From: Verrucomicrobiota bacterium
Lineage (GTDB): Bacteria > Verrucomicrobiota > Verrucomicrobiia > Limisphaerales > PALSA-1396
Direction: 5' to 3'
Assembly: GCA_016200005.1 (NCBI GenBank)
Contig: JACQFP010000031.1
Location: forward strand, 62,001 to 126,000
Length of the DNA stretch: 64,000 nt
Shown here: piece by piece, positions 11,600-15,386 of the stretch
Numbering within the stretch: position 1 is the stretch's first letter
How the letters are laid out: each line of letters starts with the position of its first letter
Made by a program: the position numbers and the translations under genes
Notes under the pieces: model-generated
Database searches by the model: none
The model's input: the letters and a program-made list of their open reading frames with translations, nothing else
What the model was told of the DNA's origin: nothing

Positions 11600-11665
11600 A
11601 AATAAATTAAGGTTAGCGAGCGTAGTGCAGTTACAAAATAAATCAAGTCGCCAACCTTGCCCAAA

Positions 11666-12493
11666 ATGTCTCCGACTCTTAATCCGCAGATCGCCGCCGC
11701 GCGTTTGAGAAAAATCTCAAAGCTCCGGCCAACGCTGGCGATGGTGCTGGGCAGCGGATTTCAGGATGCGCTGGTCGAACTGCGCGTGCAGGCCAGGCTG
11801 GCCTTTGGTAAGCTACCAGGTTTTCCACCGGTCGGGGTGAGTGGTCACGCGGGGCAATTGCTGATCGGACATCTGGGTGGTACGCCGGTGCTGGTGTTGA
11901 GCGGCCGGGCGCATTTTTACGAGGGGCATTCCATGGCGGCCGTGACGTTTCCGATTCGTGTGCTGGCGGAGTTTGGCATTCGCGATCTGCTGCTCACCAA
12001 CGCGGCAGGTGGCGTCAACCGGCGTTATCGTTCGGGCGATTTCATGTGCTTGACCGACCACATCAATTTCATGGGCGCAAACCCGCTCAGAGCTGGGGCG
12101 TTGCGCGGTCGAGCTTGTTTTCTGGATCTGACGCAAACATATGACGAAAATCTGAATCGGCTGCTTAAAAGAGCGGCGCGTCGGAGCGGGGTGCGATTGC
12201 ATTCGGGTGTTTACCTTGCGGTATCGGGCCCCAGTTACGAAACGCCGGCGGAAATCCTCGCGTTCACCCGGCTCGGAGCGGATGTTGTCGGGATGAGCAC
12301 GGTGCCGGAAGCCATTGTGGCGCGGCAATGCGGCTTGAAAGTGGCGGCGGTTTCGTGCATCACCAATCTGGCGGCAAGACGGGGCCGCGATTCGTTGTCG
12401 CACGCGGAGGTGCTGGAGACGGCGGGAAAAGTGAAAACGATGGCAGCGTTCCTGCTCAAAGAGTTTGCCCGGTTGTATGGCCAACATCAGTAA
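11666..12493 (+). CDS. punA: Purine-nucleoside phosphorylase (trimeric, PNP/MTAP class)
   Basis: A 275-residue enzyme that phosphorolyses purine nucleosides to the base and (deoxy)ribose 1-phosphate. Family motifs are MVLGSGF near residue 27, GVSGHAG, SGRAHFYEGHSM, LTNAAGGVN, SGPSYETPAE and GADVVGMSTVPEAIVARQCG. These fit the trimeric class with guanosine/inosine preference. I chose the ATG at 11666; a TTG at 11657 would add three residues. The cytidine deaminase gene starts inside its 3' end (17-bp overlap), so the two form a nucleoside-salvage operon with coupled translation. Confidence 0.93.
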   Translation: MSPTLNPQIAAARLRKISKLRPTLAMVLGSGFQDALVELRVQARLAFGKLPGFPPVGVSGHAGQLLIGHLGGTPVLVLSGRAHFYEGHSMAAVTFPIRVLAEFGIRDLLLTNAAGGVNRRYRSGDFMCLTDHINFMGANPLRAGALRGRACFLDLTQTYDENLNRLLKRAARRSGVRLHSGVYLAVSGPSYETPAEILAFTRLGADVVGMSTVPEAIVARQCGLKVAAVSCITNLAARRGRDSLSHAEVLETAGKVKTMAAFLLKEFARLYGQHQ

Positions 12494-12890
12494 GAAGGAT
12501 TTGATTGAAGCGGCGTTTCGAGCGCGCCGACGCGCGGTTGCTCCGTATTCGAAGTTCAAAGTCGGTGCCGCCTTGCTTACGAAGCCGGGGAAAATCATCA
12601 CCGGCGCGAATGTGGAGAGTGCCAGTTACGGTTTGACCTGTTGCGCGGAGCGAGTGGCGCTCTTCAAGGCGTTGACCGAAGGCCACACGCACTTTGCTGC
12701 CATTGCCGTCGTGGCGCGCGTGCCGGGAGGACCGATGCCGTGCGGTGCCTGCCGGCAGCTTTTGGCGGAATATGCGGCGGACGCGGTGGTGTTGGTCGCA
12801 GACAGCCGGTCGTTGCGCCAGATAAGGCGGTTTTCAGTAAGGAATTTGTTGCCGGCTGCGTTTGTCAAAGTTCCGAGACGGTCTGCGTGA
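12477..12890 (+). CDS. cdd: Cytidine deaminase
   Basis: A 137-residue homotetrameric-type cytidine deaminase, converting cytidine or deoxycytidine to uridine forms in pyrimidine salvage. YSKFKVGAAL is near residue 24-33, the catalytic glutamate is in TCCAERVALFKA, and the zinc cysteines are in PCGACRQLL. The ATG at 12477 sits inside the upstream phosphorylase gene (overlap 12477-12493), which argues for translational coupling. The length is normal for the short bacterial form. The C-terminal tail (NLLPAAFVKVPRRSA) contains the usual LLPxAF motif. Confidence 0.94.
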   Translation: MANISKKDLIEAAFRARRRAVAPYSKFKVGAALLTKPGKIITGANVESASYGLTCCAERVALFKALTEGHTHFAAIAVVARVPGGPMPCGACRQLLAEYAADAVVLVADSRSLRQIRRFSVRNLLPAAFVKVPRRSA

Positions 12891-12937: not shown

Positions 12938-14470
12938 ATGATGAAGTCTGAGTTTGTATTTGCCTTGGAGAACGCCGCCTGGCCCGCGTTTCTAGTGGAT
13001 GAGGCCGGGACGATACGCCGAGTTAATCAAGCGGCGGTGAAAGCTTTTGGCGCGGTTCTGGAAGGCGAGTTTGCGTTGCTCTCGGCGATCTGGTCGCCGG
13101 CCAATGAAGGCACGGCGGAACAATTTTTGGCGCGTTGGGAACGTTCTCCTTCAGCCACGGTTTCGCTTAAATTCTCCAGCAAAGGTGGAATCACCACCGG
13201 ATACCTGACCCACATTTGTTCCGCGACCTGGGGCCAACAAAAGCATTTCGTGTTTCAACTCTTGGCGGAAACTGACGCTGGCCCTGGGCTTCAAGCCGCT
13301 GCTCTGGAAACCAAAGTCCTGAACCTCGAAGCCAGCGTGGCGCACAAACAGAAACTGGACTGCGCCTTGCAACTGGCACGCACGGTGGCGTTGGACTTCA
13401 ACAATGCACTGACCAGCATCCTCGGGCACACTTCGCTCGTTTTAAGCCGGATGCCTCCCAACGATCCCTGGCGCGCTTCCTTGATGGAGGTGGAGAAATC
13501 GGCCGCCAAGGCGGCGGAGATTGCCAGCGACCTTGGCACTTTTAGTCGTCAGGAAAAGGACACCCGCGGCCAGACCGCCGGCAATTTGAATCTGCTCCTG
13601 CAACCGAACGTGGAACTGTTCCAAAGTTCAAACAAGGGCAAGATCAATTGGTCCCTCCAGTTGGAGCGAAAACTATTCACGGTAAAGTTTGACGAGGCCA
13701 AAATGCAGCAGGCTTTCGTCAAGATTCTGGAGAACGCCGTTCAAGCTCTTGGCCCGGCCAATGGACGGATCAGCATCCAAACGCGCAACCTGGAACTCCG
13801 GCAGCCAACTCAGGACCGGAACGTGCACCTCGCCGCGGGCAATTACGTTTGCGTGGAGATCGCCGACAATGGTTGCGGCATAGAGCCGGAAGTGTTGCCG
13901 CGAATTTTCGAACCGTTCTTCACCACCAAACCGGGGGGCACTCATCGCGGTCTGGGTCTGGCTTGGGTTTACGGCATCGTCACCAACCACGGCGGCGGCG
14001 TGGCGGTGTCCAGTCACCCCGGCACGGGCACCTCGGTGCGCGTTTATTTGCCGGCCGAGAAAAAAGTCGTCAAAGACAACGGCGTCTCCACCGCCGACCT
14101 GCACGGAACTCAAACCATCCTGATGGTGGATGACGAGGATTTGTTGTTGACGATGGGCCAGACGATCCTGTCGGCATTTGGCTACCGGGTGTTGACGGCC
14201 AACAGTGGGGCGAAGGCGCTCGAAATCTTGTCGCAGAATGAAACCCATATTGATTTGATTATCACGGACCTGGTCATGCCGAACATGAGCGGGCGGGATC
14301 TGATTGAGCATGTCCGCCAGCTCGCGCCCGAGCTGCGCATCATCCGCTCCAGCGGTTATGTTTGGCCGATGGGCAAGGAGGACGACGCCGACTACCTGCA
14401 AAAACCCTTTACCAGCCAGGAGTTGTTATTAAAAGTCAAGCAAGTGTTGACGCCCCAGGAAACAACATAA
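12938..14470 (+). CDS. Hybrid sensor histidine kinase-like protein lacking the H-box histidine
   Basis: A 510-residue cytosolic signalling protein. The N-terminal part (about 5-115) looks like a PAS sensor (WPAFLVDEAGTIRRVNQAA). A dimerisation helix follows, then the H-box, which reads LARTVALDFNNALTSILGH: Leu stands where the family has the phospho-accepting His of AHDFNN. The ATPase domain is intact by eye: ENAVQAL (N box), IADNGCGIEPE (G1), FEPFFTTKPGGTHRGLGL (F/G2). A receiver domain is at the C-terminus (about 385-505) with VDDED, phospho-Asp in IITDLVMPNMSG and the lysine in LQKPF. No membrane segment is seen. It may act as a phosphatase, an ATP sensor or a partner for another kinase. 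A LysR gene follows 37 bp later. Confidence 0.88.
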   Translation: MMKSEFVFALENAAWPAFLVDEAGTIRRVNQAAVKAFGAVLEGEFALLSAIWSPANEGTAEQFLARWERSPSATVSLKFSSKGGITTGYLTHICSATWGQQKHFVFQLLAETDAGPGLQAAALETKVLNLEASVAHKQKLDCALQLARTVALDFNNALTSILGHTSLVLSRMPPNDPWRASLMEVEKSAAKAAEIASDLGTFSRQEKDTRGQTAGNLNLLLQPNVELFQSSNKGKINWSLQLERKLFTVKFDEAKMQQAFVKILENAVQALGPANGRISIQTRNLELRQPTQDRNVHLAAGNYVCVEIADNGCGIEPEVLPRIFEPFFTTKPGGTHRGLGLAWVYGIVTNHGGGVAVSSHPGTGTSVRVYLPAEKKVVKDNGVSTADLHGTQTILMVDDEDLLLTMGQTILSAFGYRVLTANSGAKALEILSQNETHIDLIITDLVMPNMSGRDLIEHVRQLAPELRIIRSSGYVWPMGKEDDADYLQKPFTSQELLLKVKQVLTPQETT

Positions 14471-14507: not shown

Positions 14508-15386
14508 ATGCAAATTGAGAGTCTCAAAGTCTTTTGTGACCTGGCCGAAACCGAAAGTTTCACGAAGGCCGCCCAGATCAACGACATCACCCAGTCCGCC
14601 GTCAGTCAACAGATCAGTTCGCTGGAACGGCAATTCAAATCGCTGCTCATCGAACGGAGCAAGAAGAAATTCCGCCTGACGCGGGAAGGCCACGTGCTCT
14701 ACGAATTCAGCAAGCAGATCATTCAGACTTACGATTCGTTGCACAGCCGGCTGCAGGAAATCAAAGACATCATCTCGGGCACCATTCGCGTGGCCACCAT
14801 TTACAGCATCGGGTTGCACGACCTGCCGCCCTACATCAAGCGATTTCTCAAGCGCTATCCCACCGTCAACGTGCACGTTGAATATCGCCGCGCCAACCAG
14901 GTGTATGAGGACGTGCTGGGCAACGTGGTGGATTTGGGGCTGGTCGCCTATCCCGCGCGGGAAATCAAACTGGAAACGGTGGCCCTGCGGAAAGACCCGC
15001 TGGTGTTGATCTGCCATCCGCAACATGCCTTCGCCAAAGCCAAAACGATCAAACTGAAGGCCATTGCCGGTCAAAAATTTATCGGCTTCGAACCCGACAT
15101 TCCCACCCGCAAAGCCCTCGATAAAATTTTGAAAGACCACGAAGTCCAGGTCGATCACGTGATGGAGTTCGACAATATCGAAACGGTAAAGCGCGCCGTG
15201 GAGATCGATGCGGGCATCTCCATCGTTCCGCAAGGCACGATCTTGCAGGAAGTCTCCAAACAAACTCTCGCCCAGGTGCAATTCGAGGACGCGGAGTTCT
15301 ATCGGCCGTTGGCGGCCATCTACAAGAAGAACAAGGTGCTTTCGCCGGCCATGAAACAATTTCTGGCGATCTTGAAAGAGGCGTGA
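14508..15386 (+). CDS. LysR family transcriptional regulator
   Basis: A 292-residue LTTR. The winged helix-turn-helix is at residues 1-65 (LKVFCDLAETESFTKAAQ, then SAVSQQISSLERQF, and RLTREGHVLYEF). The co-inducer domain follows (IRVATIYSIGLHDLPPYIKRF; GLVAYPAREIKLE; GISIVPQGTI), as in CysB/CbbR-type regulators. The ATG at 14508 puts the HTH at the very start, as is usual; an upstream TTG would add 12 unlikely residues. It lies directly behind the hybrid sensor gene and converges on the aminopeptidase gene. Its target genes are unknown; LTTRs normally control a divergent neighbour, and none is present here. Confidence 0.92.
   Translation: MQIESLKVFCDLAETESFTKAAQINDITQSAVSQQISSLERQFKSLLIERSKKKFRLTREGHVLYEFSKQIIQTYDSLHSRLQEIKDIISGTIRVATIYSIGLHDLPPYIKRFLKRYPTVNVHVEYRRANQVYEDVLGNVVDLGLVAYPAREIKLETVALRKDPLVLICHPQHAFAKAKTIKLKAIAGQKFIGFEPDIPTRKALDKILKDHEVQVDHVMEFDNIETVKRAVEIDAGISIVPQGTILQEVSKQTLAQVQFEDAEFYRPLAAIYKKNKVLSPAMKQFLAILKEA

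Follow-up and report, generated by a model that had tools for sequence, protein, structure and literature searches.

An ancient family of predicted hybrid pseudo-histidine kinases in the order Limisphaerales

Why would a bacterium keep a hybrid sensor kinase that has lost its phospho-accepting histidine, and what could such a protein still do? This question is raised by the open reading frame at 12938-14470 (+) of the window, i.e., the whole stretch of 64,000 nucleotides analysed here, which encodes a 510-aa protein with the layout PAS-DHp-CA-REC. Its H-box reads ARTVALDFNNALTSILGH (given in full as QLARTVALDFNNALTSILGH), with Leu152 where the acceptor histidine is expected. To our knowledge, studies have covered few naturally occurring pseudo-histidine kinases. 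The standard bacterial example is DivL; plant phytochromes and subfamily-2 ethylene receptors likewise contain histidine kinase-related modules without the acceptor histidine, and differ in that they have other input domains, are eukaryotic, and underwent an unrelated loss. The features of the locus, all on the + strand, are as follows.

11657-12493, +: purine nucleoside phosphorylase, upstream neighbour (NCBIfam PRK08202, synteny)
12477-12890, +: cytidine deaminase, upstream neighbour (NCBIfam cyt_deam_tetra, synteny)
12938-14470, +: predicted hybrid pseudo-histidine kinase, 510 aa (Pfam, AlphaFold2 pLDDT 85.9, 90-row family alignment A1)
12986-13267, +: PAS-like domain, N-terminal, residues 17-110 (model secondary structure, weak Pfam PAS)
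13295-13558, +: DHp helical hairpin, residues 120-171 and 179-207 (AlphaFold2 model)
13391-13393, +: Leu152 (TTG), phospho-acceptor position (Leu/Met in 104/106 family members)
13394-13405, +: DxxN motif D153-F-N-N156 (H+1 acid, H+4 Asn), kept (alignment)
13586-14065, +: CA (HATPase_c) domain (Pfam, AlphaFold2 model)
13721-13723, +: Lys262 (AAG) in place of the first N-box Asn (alignment)
13943-13960, +: HRGLGL ATP-lid motif, canonically GTGLGL (alignment with canonical kinases)
14111-14452, +: receiver domain, C-terminal (Pfam, alignment)
14508-15386, +: LysR-type regulator, 38 nt downstream of the kinase gene (synteny)

In the protein, the Pfam matches to HATPase_c (2.8e-22) and Response_reg (1.6e-16) are above cut-off, HisKA is under it (18.5 bits vs. 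26.9), and the PAS match is weak. The AlphaFold2 model, for which the family alignment served as input, contains PAS, DHp, CA, and REC domains at a mean pLDDT of 85.9, with a pTM of 0.53 that leaves the arrangement of the domains uncertain. Conservation within the family is highest in the DHp (mean major-residue frequency 0.80 vs. 0.46 in the N-terminus). In three lineages (L047, L098, and L106) the PAS domain is absent and a short Pro-rich or unrelated N-terminus takes its place while the DHp-CA-REC core is kept, so that the core can be retained without the sensor and the input need not be the PAS domain.

Leucine at the acceptor position and its history

The earlier note had read leucine instead of the H-box histidine, and this was borne out, as all nine of the closest paralogues in the same genome have AHDFNN or AHDLNN with the histidine present. 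Among the 30 strongest HATPase_c matches of the genome, the H-box histidine was found in 29 (20 by regular expression, 9 by inspection); in the remaining one (L161) it was neither matched by the pattern nor settled by eye. Leucine at the acceptor also occurs in a genome of the same genus (G001) and in about 90 other genomes, and is encoded by six codons, i.e., CTG (52), TTG (21), CTC (17), CTT (8), CTA (1), and TTA (1) in 114 rows that include a few genomes fetched twice. A read error is therefore ruled out, as had been argued for a single-base error from the distance of TTG to a histidine codon, and a mutation of this single genome is rejected on the same evidence. Two ways in which the first reading might have failed were likewise not encountered, namely, I) a true histidine elsewhere in the helix, since H164 is Tyr in several members and there is no fixed alternative His, and II) relatives with His combined with an error here, since relatives overwhelmingly have Leu.

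Orthologues (E <= 1e-70) were found in 110 of the 293 genomes of the order Limisphaerales and in 60 of 118 genera. A search of 388 phylum-wide genomes at E <= 1e-66 added only canonical His kinases with 35-37% identity, and no intermediates between these and the family turned up. With 355 bits for the weakest near-full-length member against about 234 for the top canonical kinase, the family is discrete. The gene is without a match in the other 183 of the 293 genomes, a count that is affected by incomplete genomes and by the scoring of top candidates only. At least one absence is recent, since genus g85 holds one genome with the kinase (G123) and one without it (G158). One orthologue (L013; JAFGTN010000015.1, match 558-2072) lies in a MAG titled Pirellulales (Planctomycetota) and is positioned in the tree among Limisphaerales members; this contig is probably mislabelled or misbinned, with transfer as the alternative.

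In a tree of 121 rows obtained with a quick method, a branch with an SH-aLRT support of 100 separates all 106 family members from the other rows. The acceptor residue of these 106 is Leu in 93, Met in 11, and His in 2, and the alignment that had been proposed as a check thus finds Leu/Met in 104 members from about 60 genera of one order. At least four changes are needed at this position, and the cheapest history consists of one basal His-to-Leu change, one Leu-to-Met change (covering families f26, f48, and f30), and two late Leu-to-His returns at the tips, with the direction resting on the canonical outgroup. Many deep forks of the tree are weak and the long outgroup branch was flagged, but the tip positions of the His members are independent of both. 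The clade that changed from Leu to Met suggests maintenance of a hydrophobic side chain at the acceptor. Within this clade, the f26 members L107, L110, L111, L113, L114, and L116 encode a longer protein of about 550-570 aa. The two His members, G091 (L033 / L125) and G274 (L106), both use CAC, which is one base from CTC, and both keep the other changes of the family around the H-box, N-box, and lid; they are therefore single-residue returns and not canonical kinases. The His protein of G274 is also one of those without a PAS domain.

Pairwise NG86 dN/dS values are 0.03-0.34 in all 14 close pairs and are low in CA and REC too, by which a decaying pseudogene is rejected. Two family members show internal stops in the alignment. 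Taken together, the sequences demonstrate an ancient, selectively maintained family of what are predicted to be hybrid pseudo-histidine kinases.

Remodelled and retained sites around the acceptor

The family was compared with 15 canonical kinases at positions where the canonical set is 80-100% uniform, and differs from it by G144L, G148R, G149T/S, H152L/M, Q198D, N262K/R, G336H, T337R, and Q350N. The GG before the acceptor has become RT; at position 262, 97/98 family members carry K/R and 15/15 canonical kinases carry N; and in the lid, R337 is invariant and H336 is present in 95% of the family, where all canonical kinases compared have T and G. The loss of the histidine is one element of a concerted remodelling of the catalytic face. 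In CpxA, Asn356, the equivalent of N262, contacts the H+1 Glu249 and its substitution N356Y is kinase-deficient, and GHKL ATPases have a general-base Glu at the equivalent position (PMC3904827). In the family, an acid at 153 occurs together with K/R at 262 in 97/98 members, which suggests that a D153-K262 acid-base contact may replace the catalytic pair. With Leu/Met at the acceptor and Lys/Arg in place of the Asn by which the H+1 acid is positioned, the established histidine kinase mechanism predicts that the protein cannot autophosphorylate via the normal route and is kinase-dead.

Other sites are retained. Among the 98 full-length members, the second N-box Asn (N266), D310, G312, G314, and G338-L-G340 are essentially invariant, each position of DxGxG and GLGL is at least 97% conserved, and the DxxN motif has its D153 in 97/98 and its N156 in 97/98. 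In the receiver, D398, D399, D444, and K489 are invariant (98/98) and S/T472 is always present, in line with the earlier view of an intact receiver aspartate. The claim of intact ATPase boxes held for the second N-box Asn, DxGxG, and GLGL, but not for the first N-box Asn, which is Lys/Arg, nor for the lid, where GTGLGL is HRGLGL; a live ATP site was accordingly half right, as catalytic positions around it changed along with the histidine. Since the nucleotide-contact and receiver residues are essentially invariant, the ATP and receiver sites are under selection without the histidine, and use of both is implied. Of the roles that had been offered for the protein, pseudokinase is well supported by Leu/Met in 104/106, the sequence being compatible with more than one sub-mechanism.

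The gene neighbourhood

The kinase gene is part of a conserved cluster with the order pnp-cdd-HK-lysR on the same strand. Beside the kinase, LysR is found in 73 loci, purine nucleoside phosphorylase (PNP) in 85, and cytidine deaminase (CDA) in 60, many other loci having too little flank. The adjoining LysR, usually 77-93% identical, occurs in 252 of the 293 order genomes vs. 110 for the kinase, and is thus far more conserved and widespread than its neighbour; its best NCBIfam matches are all under cut-off. In 20 sampled genomes without the kinase, CDA directly precedes LysR in 7 and PNP directly precedes it in 2, with other contents or too little flank in 11. The kinase is thus cleanly missing in some relatives, and an obligate kinase-LysR pair is weakened, since LysR is so much more widespread and the kinase is simply missing between CDA and LysR in 7/20. 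In two kinase-less genomes of f42, the space between CDA and LysR is enlarged (L139 2368-5171; L140 2205-3577), and in L139 it contains an ORF that by eye resembles a macro-domain protein, along with non-coding-looking sequence. A scan of the cluster for promoters and terminators returned no more than expected by chance.

A candidate mechanism and its rivals

The closest known system is CckA. It is the best NCBIfam match (5.8e-82, under the model's own cut-off), and its DHp-CA (5idj) matches best by sequence of all solved structures (1.8e-43); in a fold search, its CA domain (5idm) reached a target TM-score of 0.79, with low full-length TM-scores, so that the likeness is at the domain level only. 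CckA shares with the 510-aa protein the PAS-DHp-CA-REC layout, an HDFNN-type H-box context, DxxN, and an SGY receiver, whereas the latter has Leu (in the family Leu/Met) at the acceptor, RT for GG, Lys for the first N-box Asn, the lid HRGLGL, a single PAS, no membrane helices in the model, and no convincing ChpT in its genome. Here, six weak PF10090 matches were found, several within canonical kinase loci and one barely above cut-off (24.2 vs. 22.9 bits, in canonical locus L008), none a convincing ChpT homologue; Hpt gave five matches, all in long frames of 431-932 aa, and the window genome thus offers no good candidate for a ChpT/Hpt relay partner. ChpT/PF10090 phosphotransferases, DHp-CA-like pseudo-histidine kinases as well, keep the His and have a degenerate CA domain (PMC9981736), the reverse of the present family.

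The family itself is well supported; for its mechanism, we infer from the retained and lost residues, tentatively and at not quite an even chance, a CckA-like hybrid pseudo-histidine kinase in which the receiver would be the input of an ATP-held, kinase-dead switch, with possible residual receiver-phosphatase activity. The intact C-terminal receiver would be phosphorylated by a kinase in trans or by a small phosphodonor and would then dock on the DHp around Leu152, a face of unusual conservation. With ATP in its retained pocket, the DHp-CA core would be kept in one defined state, perhaps via the D153-K262 contact by analogy with Glu249-Asn356 of CpxA, and would signal through protein contact. 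The retained DxxN may aid dephosphorylation of the receiver and hence reset. The adjacent LysR is a candidate output partner, though it persists without the kinase in many relatives. For this switch count the single clade (SH-aLRT 100), the four state changes, the six Leu codons, the dN/dS of 0.03-0.34, and the essentially invariant nucleotide-contact and receiver residues, as well as features that point the same way by their sequence, i.e., the retained DxxN, a PAS domain that seems dispensable in three lineages, CckA DHp-CA as closest structure by sequence, and the joint change of kinase-specific positions (G148R, G149T/S, N262K/R, G336H, T337R). Against it, the two regains of His hint that this residue is still tolerated to some degree at the acceptor, and phosphatase activity may be poor with Leu there, by analogy with the H260A variant of HK853, in which phosphatase activity is diminished (PMC5727384).

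The main rival is a sensor or scaffold resembling DivL, which is possible but rather doubtful. Its pseudo-DHp would bind the phosphorylated receiver of another regulator, or would heterodimerise with a live kinase and alter its activity; ATP would be structural, and the protein's own receiver would be a competitor or autoinhibitory lid. As in the family, the acceptor His of DivL is replaced in a protein still in use, and DivL was retrieved as a fold match (4q20, aligned at only about 20% identity). It differs by a Tyr and poor ATP binding; in the family, the acceptor is Leu/Met, the main nucleotide contacts are intact, and the protein carries a receiver of its own, a domain that DivL is not known to have. 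The high conservation of the DHp face would be expected with a conserved partner, and dozens of HATPase_c proteins in the genome (66 matches) are possible partners; conversely, the best NCBIfam match and the closest PDB match by sequence are CckA and not DivL. Despite its Tyr in place of the His, DivL retains binding to DivK~P, and it has neither kinase nor phosphatase activity (PMC4211667); it is the closest functional precedent, which speaks for this rival and counts against the switch. The same study found that DivL binds nucleotide poorly (PMC4211667), which sits badly with the invariant main nucleotide-contact residues of the family.

Less probable still is a phosphatase-only sink, in which phosphate from a regulator would flow back through an Hpt/ChpT-like protein to the receiver and be hydrolysed with the aid of DxxN. 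In CckA, the receiver and DxxN motif serve dephosphorylation in this manner, with phosphate passing via ChpT (PMC4853435), and the conservation of DxxN, receiver, and ATP site alongside lost kinase residues would fit. The absence of a convincing ChpT and the long frames of the Hpt matches argue against such a sink, as does the lowered phosphatase activity of HK853 upon His-to-Ala substitution. Live catalysis with another acceptor, as a Ser/Thr kinase or in trans on the DHp of another protein, would explain the retained ATP-binding residues, but is very unlikely given the replaced first N-box Asn and lid residues and an acceptor that is never Ser, Thr, or Tyr (Leu/Met only, bar the two His members). 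A decaying pseudogene or sequencing error, which could draw on the 183 genomes without a match and on the internal stops, has a negligible chance and is already refuted as a general explanation by the six Leu codons, the about 60 genera, strong purifying selection, and invariant receiver and nucleotide residues.

Pseudo-histidine kinases as such are already known from DivL and from a laboratory-evolved ChrS variant (PMC9491836). In a literature search of partial coverage, no description was found of a hybrid family in which Leu/Met is fixed order-wide at the acceptor while the receiver is intact and the contacts to the nucleotide are conserved. Returning to the preferred switch, a broader and more doubtful proposal is that signal flow was reversed across the order, with the receiver as input, a D153-K262 acid-base pair at the DHp-CA interface, in place of the catalytic acid-amide pair, setting the ATP-held state, and His returned twice in proteins that stayed otherwise remodelled. 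Since the acceptor His is absent and the ATP-contact and receiver sites are conserved order-wide, natural selection has uncoupled autokinase activity from the binding of ATP and from the chemistry of the receiver. With their His regained in an otherwise remodelled background, the proteins of G091 and G274 offer a direct test of whether kinase activity can be restored; in DivL Y550H, such activity needed DivK~P. An ancient loss shared by more than a hundred related bacteria is the mark of a working family whose kinases are 'dead'.
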